A DNA stretch of 47,004 nt from Pseudomonadota bacterium (GTDB taxonomy: Bacteria > Pseudomonadota > Gammaproteobacteria > Burkholderiales > Gallionellaceae), in contig JAJXTH010000019.1 in NCBI GenBank assembly GCA_021783995.1, positions 1 to 47,004 on the forward strand. The letters are read 5' to 3'. Shown here piece after piece: positions 6,732 through 39,997 of the stretch (positions are counted from its first letter, which is position 1; each line of letters opens with the position of its first letter). Below the pieces are notes generated by a model that saw only the letters and a program-made list of their open reading frames with translations, searched no databases and was not told where the DNA came from. The position numbers and the translations under genes were made by a program.

Positions 6732-7604
6732 TCAGAACGCCTGGTTCCAGAGCAGTTTTTCGCGCAACGTATGGTAGTAGCTGTGCCCGACGGGATGCAG
6801 CAGACAGGCTGGTTCGGAATAGCGTGTCACGACTATCCTGTCATCCGGATGCATGTCGAAGCTCGTATGACTGTCAAGTCGCACGCGTATGTCCCCGGTG
6901 CGGTGCATCAGGATTTCCAGTTTTGAGGATGAATGAACGACGATGGGCCGGTTGCTCAGCGTATGCGGGCAAACAGGCACCAGTTCCAGCACCTCTAGCC
7001 CCGGATGCAGTATCGGACCTCCGGCAGACATCGCATAGGCGGTGGAACCGGTCGGCGTTGCGACGATCAATCCATCAGCCCGCTGGTTGTAAAGGTACTC
7101 TCCGTTGATACGCACCTCGAATTCGACCATGCTACTGATCTGGCTGCGATGCACCACCACCTCGTTGAAGGCGGTGCCGCTGAACACCTCTGCCCCGCCG
7201 CGCATCACGCACGCGGAAAGCAAGAGACGGCGCTCGGTGACATACTCGCCATCCAGCATGCCGCCGATGACATCCAGCATGTTGTCCAGCGTGAGGTCGG
7301 TGAGGAACCCCAGCCTTCCCTGGTTCACACCTATCATGGGTACATGGTGAGGCGAAAAGGTGCGCGCGATATTCAGCATCGTGCCGTCGCCGCCGATCAC
7401 GATCGCGAGATCCACCTTTTCAGCCAACGCCGGCAGCTCCATTGCAGGATAGGGACAGGAATCCAGATGCTCTGCGCTTTGCCTGTCGACCAGCACGCTC
7501 AACCCCTTGCCGGACAAAAATTTTGCCATCCGCAGCAAGGGTTCTGCCACGTCGAGCGATTTGTGCTTGCCTACGAGTGCAACATTTTTGAAGGGAAAAT
7601 TCAT
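6732..7604 (-). CDS. nadK: NAD kinase
   Basis: NadK phosphorylates NAD to NADP. The start chosen (MNFPFKNVALVGKHKS) matches the family N-terminus and gives 290 residues; an in-frame ATG at 7640 would add twelve atypical residues. No strong ribosome site precedes either. Motifs: the catalytic VIGGDGTMLN (about 66-75), GVNQGRLGFLTDL, AFNEVVVHR, the YLYNQRADGLIVATPTGSTAYAMSAGGP active-site stretch (described in parts), and RPIVV. It is the first gene of the minus-strand housekeeping run and is divergent from the repeat protein at 7777. Confidence 0.95.
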   Translation of the reverse strand: MNFPFKNVALVGKHKSLDVAEPLLRMAKFLSGKGLSVLVDRQSAEHLDSCPYPAMELPALAEKVDLAIVIGGDGTMLNIARTFSPHHVPMIGVNQGRLGFLTDLTLDNMLDVIGGMLDGEYVTERRLLLSACVMRGGAEVFSGTAFNEVVVHRSQISSMVEFEVRINGEYLYNQRADGLIVATPTGSTAYAMSAGGPILHPGLEVLELVPVCPHTLSNRPIVVHSSSKLEILMHRTGDIRVRLDSHTSFDMHPDDRIVVTRYSEPACLLHPVGHSYYHTLREKLLWNQAF

Positions 7605-7742
7605 GGGCGCGATTAAACCACATCGGACTATCAAAGACAAAGCGCCATTTCAAATTGAAGATACCCGTGATAATCTGTCCGGAACAAATGGCGGGACCAA
7701 ACAAATGCGAACTTTCCAGCATAAATGCCGTCAAATTCCGCC

Positions 7743-7760
7743 AGAATTGCGCGCAATTCT
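7743..7760. promoter_or_regulatory. Perfect 18-bp palindrome in the leader of the repeat protein gene
   Basis: AGAATTGCGCGCAATTCT is a perfect 18-bp palindrome ending six bases before the AAGGAG ribosome site of the gene at 7777. It could be a dimeric-regulator operator or, in RNA, a 7-bp hairpin with a CGCG loop beside the ribosome site. No regulator is known. Confidence 0.4.
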
Positions 7761-7776
7761 TGTTAAGGAGAAAGTG

Positions 7777-8208
7777 ATGAAGAAGAGTCTGTTTGCAATT
7801 GTTCTGATGTCGCTGCTCGCCAGCACAGCATATGCCGATGGCTGGCATGGCGGTGGTGGCGGATGGCATGGAGGCGAAGGCTGGCGCGGCGGCGGTTGGG
7901 GCGAAGGCTGGCGCGGCGGCGGTTGGGGCGATGGCTGGCGCGGCGGCGGATGGGGCGATGGCTGGCGCGGCGACGACGACTGGGCTGACGGAGGCCTGGG
8001 GCTGATGCTAGGCCTGGGCGTGGCCAGCGGAATGATGATGCAACCAGCTCCCGTATATGCGCAGCCTGCGCCTGTCTATGTGCAACCTGCTCCTGCCTAT
8101 GTCCAGCCCGCGCCTGTATACCAGGCTCCCCCCGCATACCAGCCAACCAGCCGCGGGGAAGTCAGTTACGGACCGACGACCTATTACAATGGCTATGGCC
8201 CGCACTGA
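7777..8208 (+). CDS. Secreted Gly/Trp-rich and Pro/Tyr-rich repeat protein
   Basis: The function is not recognised. ATG 7777 follows a strong AAGGAG (7765-7770), giving 143 residues. The product has a signal peptide (about 1-22, ending STAYA), then His/Gly/Trp-rich sequence and nine-residue tandem repeats of the type EGWRGGGWG or DGWRGGGWG (DNA about 7876-7970, with 27-base units), an acidic DDDWADGG stretch, a Gly/Met segment, and a Pro/Ala/Tyr/Val repeat region (PAPVYAQ, PAPVYVQ, PAPAYVQ). Such low-complexity proteins are usually exported envelope or surface components. The His and Trp content could suggest metal or surface binding, but nothing proves it. A glycine-zipper protein follows 37 bases later. 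Confidence 0.8.
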   Translation: MKKSLFAIVLMSLLASTAYADGWHGGGGGWHGGEGWRGGGWGEGWRGGGWGDGWRGGGWGDGWRGDDDWADGGLGLMLGLGVASGMMMQPAPVYAQPAPVYVQPAPAYVQPAPVYQAPPAYQPTSRGEVSYGPTTYYNGYGPH

Positions 8209-30984: not shown

Positions 30985-31503
30985 ATGAAATTGATCTTAA
31001 AAACCCTTTTCCTCGCGGCATCCCTGAGCGCTCTTTCCGGCGCTGCGCTCGCTGAAGACGAATCGTTCGCGCCCGGTGGCACCGCAATTGACAAGCATAC
31101 CGAGCAGTACCGCGACCTGAAGGTCATCATGGACATCAAGGCCAAAGATGTCGAGACGGTCAAATACAGCACCATGGTCGCATCCAACATCATCGAGCAT
31201 CCGGGTGCCCGACTCGCGGTCGTGATCGAAGGACCGTATGTGGCCATATTCGCGAAGAAGAATTATCTCGACCATCAGGGCATCGTCGATCAATGGGTCG
31301 CTCTTGCCGAAAAGGGCGTGAAGGTTGAATACTGCGGAAGCTCCGTCCACGGCGCACATCTGACACCCGCGGACATGGAAGGGCTCACCGAGAAAAATCC
31401 TGCGGTCGTGAATCCAGGCGCCTACCCCGCCCTCGCGCACTACGAACTGGAAGGCTATGCGCTGGTCATCCCCATTCCCTTGTCTTCCCCCGAGAAGAAG
31501 TGA
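30985..31503 (+). CDS. Exported DsrE-family protein
   Basis: Starting at ATG 30985, five bases after CAGGAG, the product has 172 residues with a signal peptide ending GAALA. The mature part fits the DsrE/DsrF-like fold: DLKVIMDIKA first strand, LAVVIEGPYVAIFAKKNY, a helix (DQWVALAEKGVKVEYCGSS) ending in the conserved Cys117, and a C-terminal HYELEGYALVIPIP. The Cys position and closing aromatic/Pro strand agree with the DsrE proteins at 39053 and 39497. DsrE-like proteins bind or transfer sulfane sulfur; periplasmic members are poorly understood. Confidence 0.75.
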   Translation: MKLILKTLFLAASLSALSGAALAEDESFAPGGTAIDKHTEQYRDLKVIMDIKAKDVETVKYSTMVASNIIEHPGARLAVVIEGPYVAIFAKKNYLDHQGIVDQWVALAEKGVKVEYCGSSVHGAHLTPADMEGLTEKNPAVVNPGAYPALAHYELEGYALVIPIPLSSPEKK

Positions 31504-34173: not shown

Positions 34174-35886
34174 TCAGGCGATGCCTTCGTTGCCTTCAAT
34201 GCCCACCAGCTTCGGCAGATTGAGCTTTCTCGGCGCAACGGTCTTCTTGTCGCGCAGGTAGCCAGACACCACATCCCAGATGGGCTCGCCCTGCACGCCT
34301 TCTGCGACGGGCGCCCAGCCCGCGACCTTGTATTTCCTGTTCGGGTCGAGCGCCTTGCCGTTCAGCATCATGTTGTTGATGCGCGAGCCCATGGTCTTCG
34401 TGAGATCGCAGGTATAGCTGATGCCGCCGACGCGCACCATGTCGCCGCCCTGCTGCTTGTATGGGTCCGCGTTGAACAGGTTGTCGCACACGTCCTCCAT
34501 GATCCCCTTGATGGTCGCGCCTGTCATCTCGGTCAGCGTGCTCTGCGGATAGGTGATCGCAGTCTGATCCATCAGGTGCTCCATCGTGATGGTCTCGCCG
34601 GGAAGAAGCGAAGTGCCCCAGCGGAAGCCGGGAGAGAACGCGGCCTCGGCGCCCTTCACCTCCATCAGCGCATCGAGTATCAACTGGTCGAAAGTGCCAT
34701 TGAAGTTCCCGCGGCGATACAGCGTCCCCTCGGTAACCGCGAGCTTCTCGGCAAGTTTGTCCTCAAAGGGCGCGCGCACCTTTTTGATCAGCGCATCCAT
34801 CTCGGCATCCGGCGTTATCAGGTTTGCGAACACCGGAAGCAGCTTGTATCTGAAATCGGCGACCTTGCCGTTTCTGACATCGAAATCCAGCACGCCGAGG
34901 AATTTTCCGTTCGATCCCGCATTGGTGACCAGCGTCTGCCCGCCCGCATTCTTCACGACGACGGGCTGAGGCACCCCGTCATGGGTATGGCCGCCCATGA
35001 TCGCATCTATGCCGCTCACGCGGCCTGCGAGCTTGATGTCCACGTCCATACCGTTGTGCGAGAGCAGCACCACGACCTGCGCGCCCTTGGCGCGCGCGCT
35101 GTTCACGATCTTCTGCAGGTGGTCCTCCTGGATGCCGAATGTCCAGTCAGGCGTCATGTATCCCGGATTGGCGACAGGCGTATAGGGAAACGCCTGGCCT
35201 ATGACCGCGACGGGAATGTCGTTGATTTGCCTGAGCGTGAAGTCCTCGAACACAGGGTCGCCGAAATCGGACGTCTTGATGTTCTGCGCTACGAAGTCTA
35301 CCTTGCCCTTGAAGTCGTTGTCCACCACATGCTTGACGCGATCCGCGCCCAGCGTGAATTCCCAGTGGCCCGTCATCACGTCCACACCCAGCAGTTTTCC
35401 TGCATCCACCATGTCCTGCCCCTTGGTCCAGAGCGCAGTCGCAGAGCCCTGCCAGGTGTCTCCGCCGTCGAGCAAGAGCGAACCGGGACGGCTCGCGCGT
35501 ACCTTCTTGACCAGCGTTGCGAGGTGCGCAAATCCGCCTACCTTGCCATATGTCTTCGCTGCATGTTCGAAGTCGAGATAGGTGAACGCGTAGGCGTCAC
35601 GAGAACCCGGCTTGATGCCGTATGCCTTGAGCAGATATTCACCGACCAGATGCGGTGGCCTGTTCCTGCTTGCACCGAGGCCTATGTTGACATTGGGCTC
35701 CCTGAAATAGATCGGCAGAAGCTGCGCATGGCAGTCGGTGATGTGCAGCAGCGACACGTTGCCGAAGGATGGCAGATCGTAGAATTGATCGGCATTACCG
35801 GCAAGTGCCGAGCGGCTGTTCAATGCGAAGCCTGAGGCGGCTGCAAACGCCAGCAGCTGCATGAATTCTCGGCGGTTCATGGACAT
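34174..35886 (-). CDS. soxB: Thiosulfohydrolase SoxB
   Basis: SoxB hydrolyses sulfate from SoxY-bound thiosulfate in the periplasm, using two Mn ions. The start ATG 35886 (MSMNRREFMQLLAFA), five bases after AGGAG, gives 570 residues; the open frame continues upstream but without a ribosome site. The leader has the twin-arginine motif NRREFMQ. Metal and active-site motifs of the 5'-nucleotidase fold are LLHITDCHAQLLP, LLLDGGDTWQGS, DVMTGHWEFTLG, VVLLSHNGMDVDIKLA and IMGGHTHDGVPQP. The C-terminal domain has RRGNFNGTFDQLILDALME. It follows soxA by 26 bases. Confidence 0.97.
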   Translation of the reverse strand: MSMNRREFMQLLAFAAASGFALNSRSALAGNADQFYDLPSFGNVSLLHITDCHAQLLPIYFREPNVNIGLGASRNRPPHLVGEYLLKAYGIKPGSRDAYAFTYLDFEHAAKTYGKVGGFAHLATLVKKVRASRPGSLLLDGGDTWQGSATALWTKGQDMVDAGKLLGVDVMTGHWEFTLGADRVKHVVDNDFKGKVDFVAQNIKTSDFGDPVFEDFTLRQINDIPVAVIGQAFPYTPVANPGYMTPDWTFGIQEDHLQKIVNSARAKGAQVVVLLSHNGMDVDIKLAGRVSGIDAIMGGHTHDGVPQPVVVKNAGGQTLVTNAGSNGKFLGVLDFDVRNGKVADFRYKLLPVFANLITPDAEMDALIKKVRAPFEDKLAEKLAVTEGTLYRRGNFNGTFDQLILDALMEVKGAEAAFSPGFRWGTSLLPGETITMEHLMDQTAITYPQSTLTEMTGATIKGIMEDVCDNLFNADPYKQQGGDMVRVGGISYTCDLTKTMGSRINNMMLNGKALDPNRKYKVAGWAPVAEGVQGEPIWDVVSGYLRDKKTVAPRKLNLPKLVGIEGNEGIA

Positions 35887-35912
35887 GAGGACTCCTGAAG
35901 GATTATGTTCTG

Positions 35913-36737
35913 CTATTTTCGGTAGACCGGGGTCTGCATCGGCAGGCCATTGCTCATGAAAGTCATGAAATATTCCAGGTCGTTGTATGTTTCGCTGTTC
36001 AGAGCCTCCGGCGCCGCATGCATATTCCTGCCGCACTGCATGAAGCGCTGTTGCAGCGTGGTGATGTCCGACCCGCCCAGAAACACTGGGTAATGCGTCG
36101 CCTGCCCCACCATCATCGAAATGTGTTCATCGTTCAGGATCTTGCCTGCATTGTCTATATGGCAGCCGGCGCAGGATCCCTTTCCGTGTTTCGCGTAATA
36201 GTAAGCCTTGCCCTTCTCATAGGCCGCGAGCGCGCCCTTCCCCTCGACCTTTATATCAACCTTCATGCCATCCGACAGGCTCTTCGCATAGGCAGTCAGA
36301 AGACCCAATCCGGCGCTGCCATAAGGCAGCTCTTTCTCGCCGTTTTTCTCAAGGCACGCATTGATCGCGTTCTCGAAAGTCACGACGCGATTCGCAACCT
36401 CATCGAAATAAGGGTAGTTTCCGGCGACATTCTTCCCGCCGTTCGGGAAGCACGATGCGAATTTCTTGCCGTTTGCAAAGGGCTTTTCCCATGCCTTCTG
36501 CCCTTTCTCAAGATCCATTGAATAGGACGGAAACGACATGAAATCGTCGTACTGGCTTTTCGCCCCGGGGTTCATCGAAAGGGAACCGTATACATAGTTT
36601 TCGAATCTGATGTCGGGAAGGATCTTTTTGTAGTGGGCGAGCAGAGACTCGCGATCCTCCATCGGGCCCGCAAAAGCCGCCAGGCTTGCAGCGAGCAGGC
36701 CCAGCGCGAGTGCAAGTTTTCGCATGACGGTCGGCAT
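35913..36737 (-). CDS. soxA: Cytochrome subunit SoxA
   Basis: SoxA with SoxX links thiosulfate to the SoxY Cys. The 274-residue protein has a signal peptide (ending LAAFA; a second Met at residue 5 is an alternative start), one haem c site CAGCH (189-193) and the active-site Cys235 in QQRFMQCGRNMHAAPE, which carries the persulfide ligand. The place of the second haem of dihaem SoxA is occupied by ASCFPNGGKN and INACL (Cys96 and Cys128), so this is the monohaem type. No soxX is adjacent or elsewhere in the window. It starts one base after the soxZ stop. Confidence 0.95.
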   Translation of the reverse strand: MPTVMRKLALALGLLAASLAAFAGPMEDRESLLAHYKKILPDIRFENYVYGSLSMNPGAKSQYDDFMSFPSYSMDLEKGQKAWEKPFANGKKFASCFPNGGKNVAGNYPYFDEVANRVVTFENAINACLEKNGEKELPYGSAGLGLLTAYAKSLSDGMKVDIKVEGKGALAAYEKGKAYYYAKHGKGSCAGCHIDNAGKILNDEHISMMVGQATHYPVFLGGSDITTLQQRFMQCGRNMHAAPEALNSETYNDLEYFMTFMSNGLPMQTPVYRK

Positions 36738-36738
36738 G

Positions 36739-37056
36739 TCAGGCCGCAGCCGCTATCTCGACTTCGCCGTCATAGTGTGCATCGAGGTTGTCGACCGCGT
36801 GGACCGCGATCTTGTCGCCCGCCTTGGCACCCTTGACCCTGAACTCGAAAAACGGATTCTTGGCAACACCCACGCCCCACTGCGCCTCAAGCACTGGCGT
36901 GCCGTTCAGGGTCGCCGTGACCAGGTTGATGAAATGGGCCGGGATGAACTTGCCGGTGTCCTTGTCCTTGCGCAATCCTGTTTCCATGTCGTGCTGCATC
37001 AGTACCTTGACGGTGGCGACATCGCCATCCATCGTCGCGCGCATTCTCATTGCCAT
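36739..37056 (-). CDS. soxZ: Sulfur carrier complex subunit SoxZ
   Basis: SoxZ forms the SoxYZ heterodimer that carries sulfur intermediates. The start ATG 37056 (MAMRMRATMDGDVATVKVLM) follows AAGGA by seven bases and gives 105 residues, the family length; an in-frame upstream ATG at 37140 overlaps soxY. Motifs: VLMQHDMETGLRKDKDTGK, IPAHFINLV and NPFFEFRVKGAKAGDKI. There is no signal peptide, as usual, since SoxZ is exported with Tat-dependent SoxY. Confidence 0.96.
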   Translation of the reverse strand: MAMRMRATMDGDVATVKVLMQHDMETGLRKDKDTGKFIPAHFINLVTATLNGTPVLEAQWGVGVAKNPFFEFRVKGAKAGDKIAVHAVDNLDAHYDGEVEIAAAA

Positions 37057-37105
37057 GCTGTTGTCCTTTTCGAATGATGTAAATTCTGCAATCGTGCGAG
37101 CACGA

Positions 37106-37564
37106 TCAGCCGCCGCACCCGCCCGCTGTAACTTTGACATCGCGGCTGTTGGTATAGACCTTGCCGTTCGCCTTCACCATGATGCGCACAGGAGCCGTCT
37201 CGGCCATCTTGATGCGCACGGAGATGAAAGGCTCGGCGCCGTTCATGAAATTGAATTCGGCAATCATGGGATTGGGATTCTTGTCGGAAAAGATCGCGAT
37301 CGAGGTGGTGCCTGGAATGTTGCTGGTCGCTTCCACAGGGACCAGCGCGCCGTTTTCCGCGATCTCCGGAACCTTGATCAGGATGTCGTCGCTCGCTGCA
37401 GCACCCTCATAGCCGGAACTCTTCAAGGCCTCATCCAGCTTCTTCGCGGTAAAGGCGGCGCTGTTCCACTCGAGCGCGAATGCCTTGCCGACTTTAAGCA
37501 CCCCTGACAGCATCGCGACTGCGACGGCCGTGCCCTTCAAAAACGTTCTTCTTGCCTGATTCAT
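37106..37564 (-). CDS. soxY: Sulfur carrier protein SoxY
   Basis: SoxY binds sulfur species covalently through a C-terminal Cys on a flexible arm. The 152-residue product has a twin-arginine-like leader (ARRTFLKGTAVAVAM), a beta-sandwich domain, and ends VTAGGCGG, with the swinging-arm Cys150. It starts 50 bases downstream of the anti-sigma gene and leads soxY-soxZ-soxA-soxB. No GGAATA-N16-CGTC element lies in the short gap, so transcription probably comes from the sigma-factor promoter. Confidence 0.96.
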   Translation of the reverse strand: MNQARRTFLKGTAVAVAMLSGVLKVGKAFALEWNSAAFTAKKLDEALKSSGYEGAAASDDILIKVPEIAENGALVPVEATSNIPGTTSIAIFSDKNPNPMIAEFNFMNGAEPFISVRIKMAETAPVRIMVKANGKVYTNSRDVKVTAGGCGG

Positions 37565-37614
37565 TTAATGCCTTTCATGTTGATTTAAACTTTACGCAAT
37601 CGCTGCGCCATGCG

Positions 37615-38343
37615 TCACACCCTGACGTAGTCCCACCCCTGCTGCAGACGCCTGCTGATCTCGTCAAGCGCCGAAGAGGCGATGCGCACATTGGGCAGCA
37701 GCTTCACGACAACGCCTTTCTTCTGCAGCTCGGTAATGCTCTGGTTGCAGCCCACGACATCCAGATTCGGAAATTCCTTCTGCAGCGCGCTGATGCGCTC
37801 CCTGTAGCGCGTCACATCGGAACGCAGAAGATCAAGGCCGCCGCCGTTAGCGATGATCTCTATCTTCAGCTTCTGTTTTGTCTGCCTGTAGCTCTTCAGC
37901 AGATTCTCGGTCTCGTCCAGCGCAGTCTTCAGCCTCAGGGGATTGGCATCGCTGACCTGCACGATGATCTTTCCTGGCTCCTGTCTGATGTCGTTGTTCT
38001 GGATGATCTGGAACAGGCTCAGCACCTTGTGATATTTCGACGCATCATGCTTTTCCGAGACGTTCCAGCCGAACAGGCCTCCAAGCATCAGCAGGAACAG
38101 GGTGGCCGCGAGCGTCTGCACATAGCGCGACCAGTCGCGGCTTTTCGGCAGGCTTTGCACATGGGTGCTCTCATGCTGCTGATAGGTGTGTCTCACCATC
38201 TCCTTCAGCCCGCGCAGCTCGCAGACGCGCATCTTGAGCGCATCATCCTGCTCTATGGAGCTGAAAAGCTCGTTTTTCTCCTCGGGACCGAGCTCATCAT
38301 CGACAAACGAATTCAGCAATTCATCCGAAACAGTATGCATCAT
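37615..38343 (-). CDS. Membrane anti-sigma factor with periplasmic DsrE-type domain
   Basis: The 242-residue protein has a cytosolic N-terminus like anti-sigma domains (SDELLNSFVDDELGPEEKNE, about 6-25, then a helix to 58), one membrane segment (about 74-94, YVQTLAATLFLLMLGGLFGW), and a C-terminal periplasmic domain (about 124-242) of the DsrE type: GKIIVQVSD, LKIEIIANGGGLDLLRSDV, LDVVGCNQSI with conserved Cys199, and GWDYVRV at the end. These blocks match the soluble DsrE protein at 39053. It lacks the HXXXCXXC zinc motif of ZAS anti-sigmas. It overlaps the sigma gene by four bases. I infer a sulfur-responsive anti-sigma factor; no experimental precedent for this exact fusion is known to me. 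Confidence 0.8.
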   Translation of the reverse strand: MMHTVSDELLNSFVDDELGPEEKNELFSSIEQDDALKMRVCELRGLKEMVRHTYQQHESTHVQSLPKSRDWSRYVQTLAATLFLLMLGGLFGWNVSEKHDASKYHKVLSLFQIIQNNDIRQEPGKIIVQVSDANPLRLKTALDETENLLKSYRQTKQKLKIEIIANGGGLDLLRSDVTRYRERISALQKEFPNLDVVGCNQSITELQKKGVVVKLLPNVRIASSALDEISRRLQQGWDYVRV

Positions 38344-38894
38344 ATGACCCTCCTTATCTGCCTTGCCGGCTGTTCAGGAGCAAACTCCTTCAAATGCAAT
38401 TTCAATGACTGGCGCGCGCGGCACAAGCGGCTCATCACGGTCCCGACCGGTATGTCGAGGATGCCCGCGACTTCGACATAGGAAAATTCCTCCAGATCCA
38501 CCAAGGTCAGCACCTGACGCTGGCCGACCGGGAGCCGTGCCACCGCCTCCAGCACGCGAGTTGCGATCTGGGACTGCGCATGATCCCTTTCCGGATCGGC
38601 ATCGTCGACGCAGCAAAAATCCTCCAGCTCGTCTATGTCCTCCATCGCCCTGTTCTGGCGAAAATGATCGCGCCAGCAGTTCGCGAGTATGCTGAACAGC
38701 CAGCCAGTCGTCTTTGCCTCGTCGCGCAACTGGTTCCTGCTCTTCAGCGCCTTGATCAGCGCTTCCTGAACCAGATCGTCGGCAAGCGCGGAATTATGGC
38801 TCCAGGAAAAGGCTACCCGGTAAAGCTTGGGTCGAATCTGCTTCAGCCGTTCCTGGAACGCATCCGCATGGCAGAACAAGGAAAGAATTTTCAT
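38340..38894 (-). CDS. ECF-family RNA polymerase sigma factor
   Basis: The 184-residue protein has sigma region 2 (about 12-80: YRVAFSWSHNSALADDLVQEAL, in two parts, then TTGWLFSILANCWRDHFRQ) and region 4 (about 118-170: VARLPVGQRQVLTLVDLEEF, SYVEVAGILDIPVGTVMSRL). Region 3 is absent, as in ECF sigma factors. The adjacent gene encodes its presumed anti-sigma partner, and a matching promoter element stands before it on the minus strand and, mirrored, before the divergent DsrE genes. The downstream sox genes are likely part of the same transcript. Confidence 0.93.
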   Translation of the reverse strand: MKILSLFCHADAFQERLKQIRPKLYRVAFSWSHNSALADDLVQEALIKALKSRNQLRDEAKTTGWLFSILANCWRDHFRQNRAMEDIDELEDFCCVDDADPERDHAQSQIATRVLEAVARLPVGQRQVLTLVDLEEFSYVEVAGILDIPVGTVMSRLCRARQSLKLHLKEFAPEQPARQIRRVI

Positions 38895-38923
38895 TTTTTA
38901 CCCAACAGTCGAAACTAACGTTT

Positions 38924-38951
38924 AAGACGCATTTGCCGCCCAGAATATTCC
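38924..38951 (-). promoter_or_regulatory. ECF-type promoter of the sigma-factor operon
   Basis: On the minus strand GGAATA (38951-38946), a 16-base spacer and CGTCTT (38929-38924) stand 30 bases before the sigma-factor ATG. GGAA-type -35 and CGTC-type -10 boxes 16-17 bases apart are typical of ECF promoters. The same element with the same spacing faces the other way at 38983-39010. Confidence 0.7.
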
Positions 38952-38982
38952 ATGGCGCGTGAATTATCCAGAAAAAATCCCT

Positions 38983-39010
38983 GGAATAAAACCGGACCGA
39001 CTTGCGTCAT
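38983..39010 (+). promoter_or_regulatory. ECF-type promoter of the divergent DsrE genes
   Basis: GGAATA (38983-38988), a 16-base spacer and CGTCAT (39005-39010) stand 42 bases before the ATG at 39053. Hexamers and spacing match the opposite-strand element at 38951-38924, and the two -35 boxes lie back to back with 31 bases between them. Confidence 0.7.
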
Positions 39011-39052
39011 AATCTGAACGCGCAACTCACAATCCGAAAAGGAAAGCTCAGA

Positions 39053-39475
39053 ATGAGACTTCAAACACTTGCAACAGCACTCCTGCTTTCTTTCGCCGCG
39101 CTGAACGCAGCAGCAGACCCTTCAGCCCCGGAGCACGAAAAGGTGATCCTGCAAGTCAGCGATTCCATCCCGTCAAAATGGAACCTGACGTTGAGCAATG
39201 CAAGCAACCTCCAGGAATTGCTTGGCAAGGACAACGTCGAGATCGAGATCGTGGCCTATGGGCCAGGGATAGACATGCTGAGGATGGAATCCGAGGTGGG
39301 AGACAAGATAGACAAGGCGGTCAGCAGCGGCGTGAAAGTCGTTGCATGCCAGAACACCATGAAGGCCAAAAAGCTGACCAAGGATGACATGCTGGGTTCC
39401 GTAAGCTATGTGCCGGGCGGCGTGCTCGAGATCATGCGCAAGGAAAAGGAAGGCTGGTCCTACGTCCGTCCATAA
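39053..39475 (+). CDS. Exported DsrE-family protein, paralogue of the anti-sigma sensor domain
   Basis: The start ATG 39053 follows AAAAGGAAAG and gives 140 residues with a signal peptide ending LNAAA (about 1-21). The mature protein is a COG1416-type DsrE domain: KVILQVSD, a helix with SNASNLQELLG, VEIEIVAYGPGIDMLR, VKVVACQNTMKAKKL with conserved Cys99, VPGGVLEIMRKEKEGWSYVR. The blocks match the periplasmic half of the anti-sigma factor (VQVSD, IEII-NGGGLDLLR, VGCNQSI, GWDYVRV). I infer a periplasmic sulfur-binding protein that may share the ligand of the sensor. An ECF-type promoter precedes it and a second DsrE gene follows 21 bases on. Confidence 0.85.
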   Translation: MRLQTLATALLLSFAALNAAADPSAPEHEKVILQVSDSIPSKWNLTLSNASNLQELLGKDNVEIEIVAYGPGIDMLRMESEVGDKIDKAVSSGVKVVACQNTMKAKKLTKDDMLGSVSYVPGGVLEIMRKEKEGWSYVRP

Positions 39476-39496
39476 TTTTTAACACAGGAGAAAACG

Positions 39497-39997
39497 ATGA
39501 AAAAATTACCACTCGCGGCTGCCATGCTGGCTGCCGCCCTCACAGCAACAACAGCGTGGGCCGATGCCACCCCGCCACAGATACACGTCGACGTACCCGT
39601 GACGCTCAAGTCAGCAAAGATCGTCTTCAACATGGATCACGCCGCGTTCAACGGCGACATGCCCATAGGCATCAAGCACATGCAACTGGTGGTGCAGCGC
39701 TTCCACAAGATGGGCGCAGAGCTCAGCATGGTAGGTGTATTCCACAGCGATGCCGGATACATGCTGCTGAACGACGAAACCTACAACAAGGTGCGCAAGA
39801 CCAACACCGGCAACCCCTATGCGCCGCTGATCGCGGACCTGATCAAGAACGGCGTGCAGATCGAGGAATGCGCAGTCACGATGCAGGGCAACGGCTGGGG
39901 CAACGAAAACCTGCTGCCCAATGTGAAGGTCGATTCCGGCGCGATTGGCCGCATCGTCCAGTTGGAACAGAACGGCTACATCATGATACAACCCTGA
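39497..39997 (+). CDS. Exported DsrE-family protein
   Basis: ATG 39497 follows CAGGAG by six bases; the product has 166 residues with a signal peptide ending TTAWA. The mature part has KIVFNMDHAAFNGDMPIGIK, HMQLVVQRFHKMGAELSMVG, VFHSDAGYMLLNDETYNKV, LIKNGVQIEECAVTMQ with conserved Cys125, and a closing strand NGYIMIQP. This is a longer DsrE-type branch than the 39053 product. Both lie on one transcript that ends in a strong terminator. The role is not established; sulfur transfer or binding in the periplasm is the family expectation. Confidence 0.82.
   Translation: MKKLPLAAAMLAAALTATTAWADATPPQIHVDVPVTLKSAKIVFNMDHAAFNGDMPIGIKHMQLVVQRFHKMGAELSMVGVFHSDAGYMLLNDETYNKVRKTNTGNPYAPLIADLIKNGVQIEECAVTMQGNGWGNENLLPNVKVDSGAIGRIVQLEQNGYIMIQP

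Follow-up and report, generated by a model that had tools for sequence, protein, structure and literature searches.

An extracytoplasmic function sigma factor and a DsrE-fold anti-sigma factor at the head of a sox operon in a Gallionellaceae genome

The stretch of DNA analyzed here, hereafter the window, comprises 47,004 nucleotides of contig JAJXTH010000019.1 (assembly GCA_021783995.1) from a Gallionellaceae bacterium of the order Burkholderiales. A preliminary description of the window, made from its letters alone, placed an extracytoplasmic function (ECF) sigma factor and an anti-sigma factor at the head of a minus-strand operon that continues through soxY, soxZ, soxA and soxB, and the coordinates bear out that order. 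The features of the locus are as follows.

38340..38894, minus strand: ECF sigma factor, 184 amino acids; Sigma70_r2 (1.4e-14) and Sigma70_r4_2 (3.2e-16), both above cut-offs
37615..38343, minus strand: anti-sigma factor, 242 amino acids; head at residues ~7-55, hydrophobic segment at ~75-95, DsrE-fold domain at ~121-241 (predicted), Cys199
37106..37564, minus strand: soxY (ends GGCGG); TIGR04488, 161 bits against a cut-off of 125
36739..37140, minus strand: soxZ, probable start at 37056 by reading; TIGR04490, 122 bits against 76
35913..36737, minus strand: soxA; TIGR04484, 185 bits against 110
34174..35886, minus strand: soxB; TIGR04486, 883 bits against 550
38926..38951, minus strand: predicted promoter of the sigma-anti-sigma-soxYZAB operon, exact GGAATA-N16-CGTC, GGAATATTCTGGGCGGCAAATGCGTC
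38983..39008, plus strand: predicted divergent promoter of two DsrE genes, exact GGAATA-N16-CGTC, GGAATAAAACCGGACCGACTTGCGTC
39053..39475, plus strand: free DsrE-family protein, a relative of the anti-sigma factor's domain; PF02635, 1.4e-6; signal peptide by eye
39497..39997, plus strand: second DsrE-family protein; PF02635, 1.1e-7; signal peptide by eye

The sigma factor was scored against Pfam cut-offs and the Sox proteins against NCBIfam cut-offs, which SoxY, SoxZ, SoxA and SoxB all exceed, placing them in the Sox system. With regions 2 and 4 only, the sigma factor has the architecture of the ECF group, and its match to TIGR02937 reaches 91.5 bits against a cut-off of 42.9. Its gene overlaps that of the anti-sigma factor by 4 nucleotides, and the pair of DsrE genes is divergent from the whole operon.

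The DsrE fold of the anti-sigma factor

The anti-sigma factor had been described as a head, one membrane segment and a DsrE-type domain with a conserved Cys199. This architecture holds, with the DsrE assignment made by fold and not by Pfam: PF02635, the Pfam DsrE family, gives no match to the protein at E values up to 10. We nevertheless assign the fold because three comparisons converge on it. Residues 121-241 resemble the neighboring gene product at 39053-39475 (32%, E = 5e-8), which itself matches PF02635; a profile of 70 relatives finds the solved structures MTH1491 (E = 9e-21) and ST0148 (E = 6e-12); and an AlphaFold2 model of the anti-sigma factor (mean predicted local distance difference test score 86.5, predicted template modeling score 0.57) contains a three-helix head whose helices are predicted at high confidence, a long helix at 71-116 in which the hydrophobic segment lies, and, at 125-241, a DsrE fold. 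A Foldseek search with this model returned 1L1S (MTH1491, E = 8.8e-8) and 2PD2 (ST0148) as its top two matches, followed by weaker matches to 3MC3, TusBCD and DsrEFH; a viral fold library gave no useful match. On these models, the C-terminal domain of the anti-sigma factor has the DsrE fold and a conserved cysteine.

Cys199 is the sole cysteine of the last 130 residues in every relative collected (127 of 127 redundant, 69 of 69 non-redundant; 10 of the 127 anti-sigma factors resisted automatic trimming, so that 117 entered the non-redundant step). It aligns with the cysteine of both 1L1S and 2PD2, and the matching cysteine is kept in all 93 redundant frames related to the free DsrE protein at 39053-39475. 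A cysteine also stands at the position of Cys41, in the head, in 117 of the 127 relatives. The protein has a single membrane segment, with a hydropathy peak of 1.64 at residues 75-95; hydropathy is at least 1.6 in 53 of 69 relatives and 1.42-1.59 in 15 of the other 16, the last being locus L251 at 0.30.

The likeness to the DsrE/DsrF-like family (PF02635: MTH1491, ST0148, TusBCD, DsrEFH) thus lies in the fold and, for 1L1S and 2PD2, in the position of the cysteine. Those proteins lack an anti-sigma head, whereas in the anti-sigma factor of the window a membrane segment joins the domain to a putative one. MTH1491, ST0148, TusBCD and DsrEFH are cytoplasmic proteins.

Promoter motif, predicted targets and spread of the pair

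The two promoters predicted in the window share the pattern GGAATA-N16-CGTC, which agrees with the consensus published for group ECF26, given as -35 GGAAT and -10 CGTC in one source (PMC6527743) and as -35 GGAATA and -10 GT in another (PMC6180224). GGAATA-N15/16-CGTC lies upstream of the sigma gene in 62 of 68 non-redundant loci. The redundant set has it in 113 of 122, compared with 5 of 6100 Markov-shuffled regions; the 122 are the loci with enough upstream sequence from overlapping sets of 62 and 65 (127 in all). Beyond its two divergent copies, the window holds no other copy of the motif, and the minus strand between 34000 and 40100 contains one weak terminator-like site, within the anti-sigma gene. 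Judged from this conserved motif and the surrounding sequence, the sigma factor very probably drives its own operon and thereby sox, as had been proposed.

Elsewhere in the same genome, a loose form of the pattern matches 12 times against 3 for a reversed control. Three of the 12, by reading, fit the stricter GGAATAWW-N14-CGTC: the copies before the sigma gene and the DsrE pair, and one on another contig (C31:24054) that precedes a porin-like gene. The encoded protein shares 30% identity (E = 9e-36) with the porin that neighbors many of the other loci; a representative of that neighboring porin exceeds the Porin_O_P cut-off, and the genome's own copy scores below it. The region around it (G000:C31:17000-35000, L267) has the layout of a second predicted regulon unit, with a DsbC-like gene, the motif, the porin-like gene and a DsrE-family gene.

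We examined long neighborhoods of the pair at 62 loci from the family and order, the window excluded; two order genomes, G163 and G497, fall outside this set, and their copies in a named collection (L062, L064) show no sox. Genes for Sox proteins lie within 8 kb of the pair in 24 of the 62, and 12 more have shorter flanks. At 52 usable loci, defined by 2.5 kb on both sides or by linked sox, neighbors were scored with hidden Markov models built in this analysis: within 5 kb, 39 have a DsrE gene, 28 a porin gene and 24 sox, and 50 have at least one of these.

An exact motif copy points away from the operon in 43 of the 62 loci. The gene behind it is a DsrE gene in 32, a DsrE gene of another type that precedes soxYZ in 2, SoxY in 4, a porin gene in 2, a YeeE/YedE-type sulfur transporter gene before soxYZ in 1, and another or unassigned gene in 2. 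Divergent sox carries the motif in L045, L246, L263 and L264, by way of the YeeE/YedE-type gene in L220 and by way of a DsrE gene in L244 and L245, while in L219, L231 and L228 the sox cluster encloses the pair. The motif also occurs in trans: before the unlinked soxY of G065 (L157); 64 bp upstream of soxY in G391, whose anti-sigma gene is ~120 kb away; before a soxY-soxZ pair (L176) in G539, the genome of L107 (titled only Proteobacteria), with soxY recognized from its two ends; and before DsrE genes in G391 and G427 (L273, L279). The proposal that sox is a target stands where the genes are linked and in several layouts, but was too narrow: by the motif, sox is one target among others, and DsrE and porin genes are commoner ones.

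The anti-sigma factor has matches in 21 of the 150 genomes sampled from the family, 16 of them at full length. The pair is adjoined by soxY and soxZ in 12 of the 15 family regions fetched besides the window; two of the three exceptions are cut by a contig end, and the third, G065, truly lacks adjacent sox. The order sample yields matches in 69 of 399 genomes, 50 of them full length by reading of the table. In the named collection of 65 loci, many of which are assemblies also met in the other searches, the sigma gene adjoins the anti-sigma gene in 64, the exception (L106) being a fragment. Of the 50 order genomes with a full-length anti-sigma factor, 47 have SoxY (E = 1e-12), versus 197 of the 349 without (Fisher p = 3.7e-8, uncorrected for kinship; G318 and G490, with a split anti-sigma match, count among the 349), and three genomes, G497, G443 and G503, have the full-length protein yet no SoxY. 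Because 197 of the 244 sox-bearing order genomes have no full-length anti-sigma factor, most do without this switch. A quick tree built from 75 concatenated sigma/anti-sigma pairs places the 22 sox-linked rows in at least two separated clades; sox linkage changes 4 times when short-flank rows are left out and 6 times against all other rows (5 of these forced by starred branches; shuffled mean 19.2).

A wide spread of the fusion across the phylum was rejected. Matches at E = 1e-20 occur in 22 of 398 genomes, and 3 are full length (the window's own, G191 and G169); 17 others, inspected one by one (L301-L317), have no sigma match within the fetched 1.5 kb and, by reading, lack an anti-sigma head. 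We likewise set aside 19 records of Rhizobium and Azospirillum plasmid matches as anti-sigma factors, since two of the three opened have no annotated sigma gene within 5 kb and the third is unannotated. One genome carries two tandem sigma/anti-sigma pairs (L077, 8378-11383).

Relation to known circuits

The closest known counterparts are the ECF26 systems RpoE4 and RpoE1 of Sinorhizobium meliloti and SigE/RpoE1 of Starkeya novella (PMC3511301, PMC6527743, PMC6180224). As here, an ECF sigma gene is followed by an anti-sigma gene, the S. meliloti anti-sigma factors are single-pass proteins, and the promoter combines a -35 GGAATA or GGAAT with a -10 CGTC. RpoE4 and SigE also govern an enzyme of inorganic sulfur oxidation, as controllers of sulfite oxidases (PMC3511301, PMC6527743), and the signals reported are sulfur compounds, namely sulfite and, for Starkeya RpoE1, tetrathionate.

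The differences concern targets and sensor. The sulfur targets known for those systems are the sulfite oxidases SorT/SorAB and not Sox, and the periplasmic part of the S. meliloti EcfR anti-sigma factors is described as somewhat RsiW-like and not as DsrE. Alpha-proteobacterial pairs with a similar sigma factor (L185-L187) also have, by eye, another C-terminal domain. Since the anti-sigma factor of the window has a predicted DsrE fold in place of an EcfR-type periplasmic domain, we call the system ECF26-like and do not file it as a member of ECF26. Plasmid-borne sigma factors of Paracoccus, Sinorhizobium and Agrobacterium are 42-44% identical to the sigma factor of the window, and the Agrobacterium gene adjoins an annotated S8 peptidase, a layout given for ECF26 (PMC6180224); both observations fit ECF26 membership in a suggestive way only. 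By analogy, the predicted circuit works like the ECF26 sulfite-oxidation circuits of RpoE4 and SigE, with another sensor domain and other targets.

Transcription of sox in relation to thiosulfate is known to be governed by a SoxR-type protein, which differs from the present system in being a repressor and not a sigma factor; the same source, from 2017, states that the mechanism of induction by thiosulfate is not known (PMC5748708). A search of the literature, limited to open-licence papers, found no DsrE anti-sigma factor and no sigma factor over sox. ECF control over the oxidation of sulfur compounds does have a precedent in ECF26. If the circuit operates as proposed, it would offer a handle on how sox genes are induced, would connect periplasmic sulfur with the transcription of sox by a direct path open to testing, would add a new type of sensor for ECF switches, and would supply a promoter motif for finding the regulon in sulfur oxidizers that carry the pair.

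Proposed mechanism and its rivals

On balance we favor a switch built from a sigma and an anti-sigma factor, ECF26-like in its promoter specificity and new in its sensor, through which periplasmic sulfur leads to release of the sigma factor and expression of sox, DsrE and porin genes. The sequence supports an anti-sigma factor located at the inner membrane and paired with the sigma factor, which its cytoplasmic head would bind. A reduced or partly oxidized sulfur species in the periplasm, such as sulfane sulfur from thiosulfate turnover, polysulfide, tetrathionate or sulfite, would modify the single periplasmic cysteine, Cys199, either unaided or with the free DsrE proteins as donors, and the change would be relayed through the membrane helix by conformation or proteolysis to free the sigma factor. 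As the promoter motif predicts, free sigma would then recognize GGAATA-N16-CGTC and transcribe its own gene, the anti-sigma gene and, by read-through, soxYZAB, together with the divergent DsrE pair and the porin-like gene elsewhere in the genome. The result would be thiosulfate oxidation by Sox, along with sulfur handling in the periplasm and an anion porin in the outer membrane. The sequences themselves bear out the promoter motif common to these loci, a layout suited to autoregulation, the predicted members of the regulon, the fold and the single invariant cysteine. Sensing of sulfur by the DsrE domain through Cys199 is a plausible conjecture.

A broader form of this proposal is that such anti-sigma factors constitute a new class of transmembrane sulfur receptor, in which the periplasmic DsrE cysteine takes up a sulfur atom or polythionate group and frees an ECF26-like sigma factor for thiosulfate oxidation, sulfur carriers and an anion porin across beta- and gamma-proteobacterial sulfur oxidizers; we hold this possible, though somewhat short of an even chance.

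In the branched pathway of sulfur oxidation, sulfane sulfur from SoxYZ passes on to reverse Dsr. The sox cluster of this genome (G000) is soxYZAB without soxX (window 34174-37564), and no match to TIGR04485 (SoxX) was found at E = 0.001 in the assembly, which is 94.6% complete. It does contain dsrA (C48:50944-52194), which fits the branched pathway and would place a DsrE sensor on an actual route of sulfur.

Several observations weigh against the favored switch. The head shows weak resemblance to known regulators (a MucA-type negative regulator of AlgU, E = 0.68; the RseA head, E = 0.85; profile positions 4-47), and in L251 (G327, 7512-8204) the membrane segment is shorter by ~7 residues than in the close relative L249. 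The strict promoter pattern is not clean genome-wide: it occurs 45 times in 13 anti-sigma genomes (reversed control, 5) and 65 times in 22 (reversed control, 10), and one genome, G537, lacks it altogether. Several of the sites opened fall within reading frames or precede unrelated genes, so that an isolated unlinked site may be coincidental. The genomes compared are mostly metagenome-assembled, the co-occurrence statistics ignore kinship, and the tree cannot separate gain from loss of sox linkage. A fusion found mostly away from sulfur genes had been named as evidence that would speak against the proposal. The family and order loci do not have this distribution, but a second set (L077-L110, mostly titled gamma or only Proteobacteria, with L081 and L110 titled Thiobacillus and L099 a copy of L045) nearly does, with no sox, DsrE or porin neighbor in 16 of 27 usable loci.

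The remaining objections bear on sox itself. At 26 of the 62 family and order loci sox is unlinked to the pair although each flank extends for 5 kb or more. Among 19 family and order genomes with unlinked sox whose strict sites and listed SoxY position were compared by coordinates, 17 have no strict site at soxY, a comparison in which a distant operon start could be missed. None of the 30 best SoxY loci, 9 with an anti-sigma factor and 21 without, has the exact motif within 1.5 kb. Sox as a general target of the sigma factor was accordingly rejected; it is a frequent target but not a universal one. The same observations, non-adjacent sox and unlinked sox mostly without the motif, would be expected if sox had merely hitch-hiked behind an unrelated sigma/anti-sigma pair while keeping its own regulation, the DsrE domain serving as a periplasmic plug. 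We think this very improbable, because the motif stands at sox in different layouts and in trans, the linkage occurs in separate clades and the cysteine is strictly invariant.

It is also conceivable that the DsrE domain of the anti-sigma factor reads a protein instead of a sulfur compound: free DsrE proteins would form a mixed oligomer with it and, by their amount or sulfur load, would set the release of the sigma factor. In favor of such a partnership, 39 of the 52 usable family and order loci have a free DsrE gene within 5 kb, and 34 of the 43 loci with a divergent promoter have a DsrE gene immediately after it. The two proteins also share a family and a cysteine, and complexes exist among solved DsrE-fold proteins (the TusBCD heterohexamer, DsrEFH). 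However, 13 of the 52 loci and 17 of the 27 in L077-L110 have no DsrE neighbor, and we regard this reading as rather unlikely, although it can be combined with direct sulfur sensing. Alternatively, the circuit may answer stress that toxic sulfite, polythionate or oxidants cause at the envelope, like the sulfite-responsive ECF26 circuits, with sox recruited for detoxification or clean-up. The promoter consensus is that of RpoE4 and SigE, whose signal is sulfite (PMC6527743), and the predicted targets are few. Against this stand a sensor domain unlike the one described for ECF26 anti-sigma factors (PMC6180224) and, by eye, unlike that of L185-L187, and the position of the sites followed up, which stand before sox, DsrE and porin genes, with no sulfite oxidase recognized behind any site opened; we consider a stress response distinctly unlikely.

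Some further features were observed at these loci. A lactonase/beta-propeller-like gene follows the anti-sigma gene in ten loci of the second set (L085, L088, L090, L095, L097, L098, L100-L102 and L105), with a PF10282 match in L097; a YVTN beta-propeller gene lies beside the tetrathionate-responsive RpoE1 of Starkeya (PMC6527743). In L166 (G539), a motif copy at 1500 precedes a gene resembling, by eye, an alpha-type carbonic anhydrase. The window itself contains a further DsrE-family gene (PF02635) at 30985-31503 on the plus strand, beyond soxB, and it is a gene of this type that sits between the motif and soxYZ in L244 and L245. Finally, the frame at window positions 7507-8208 includes a stretch rich in repeats of the W-R/H-G-G-G-W type.

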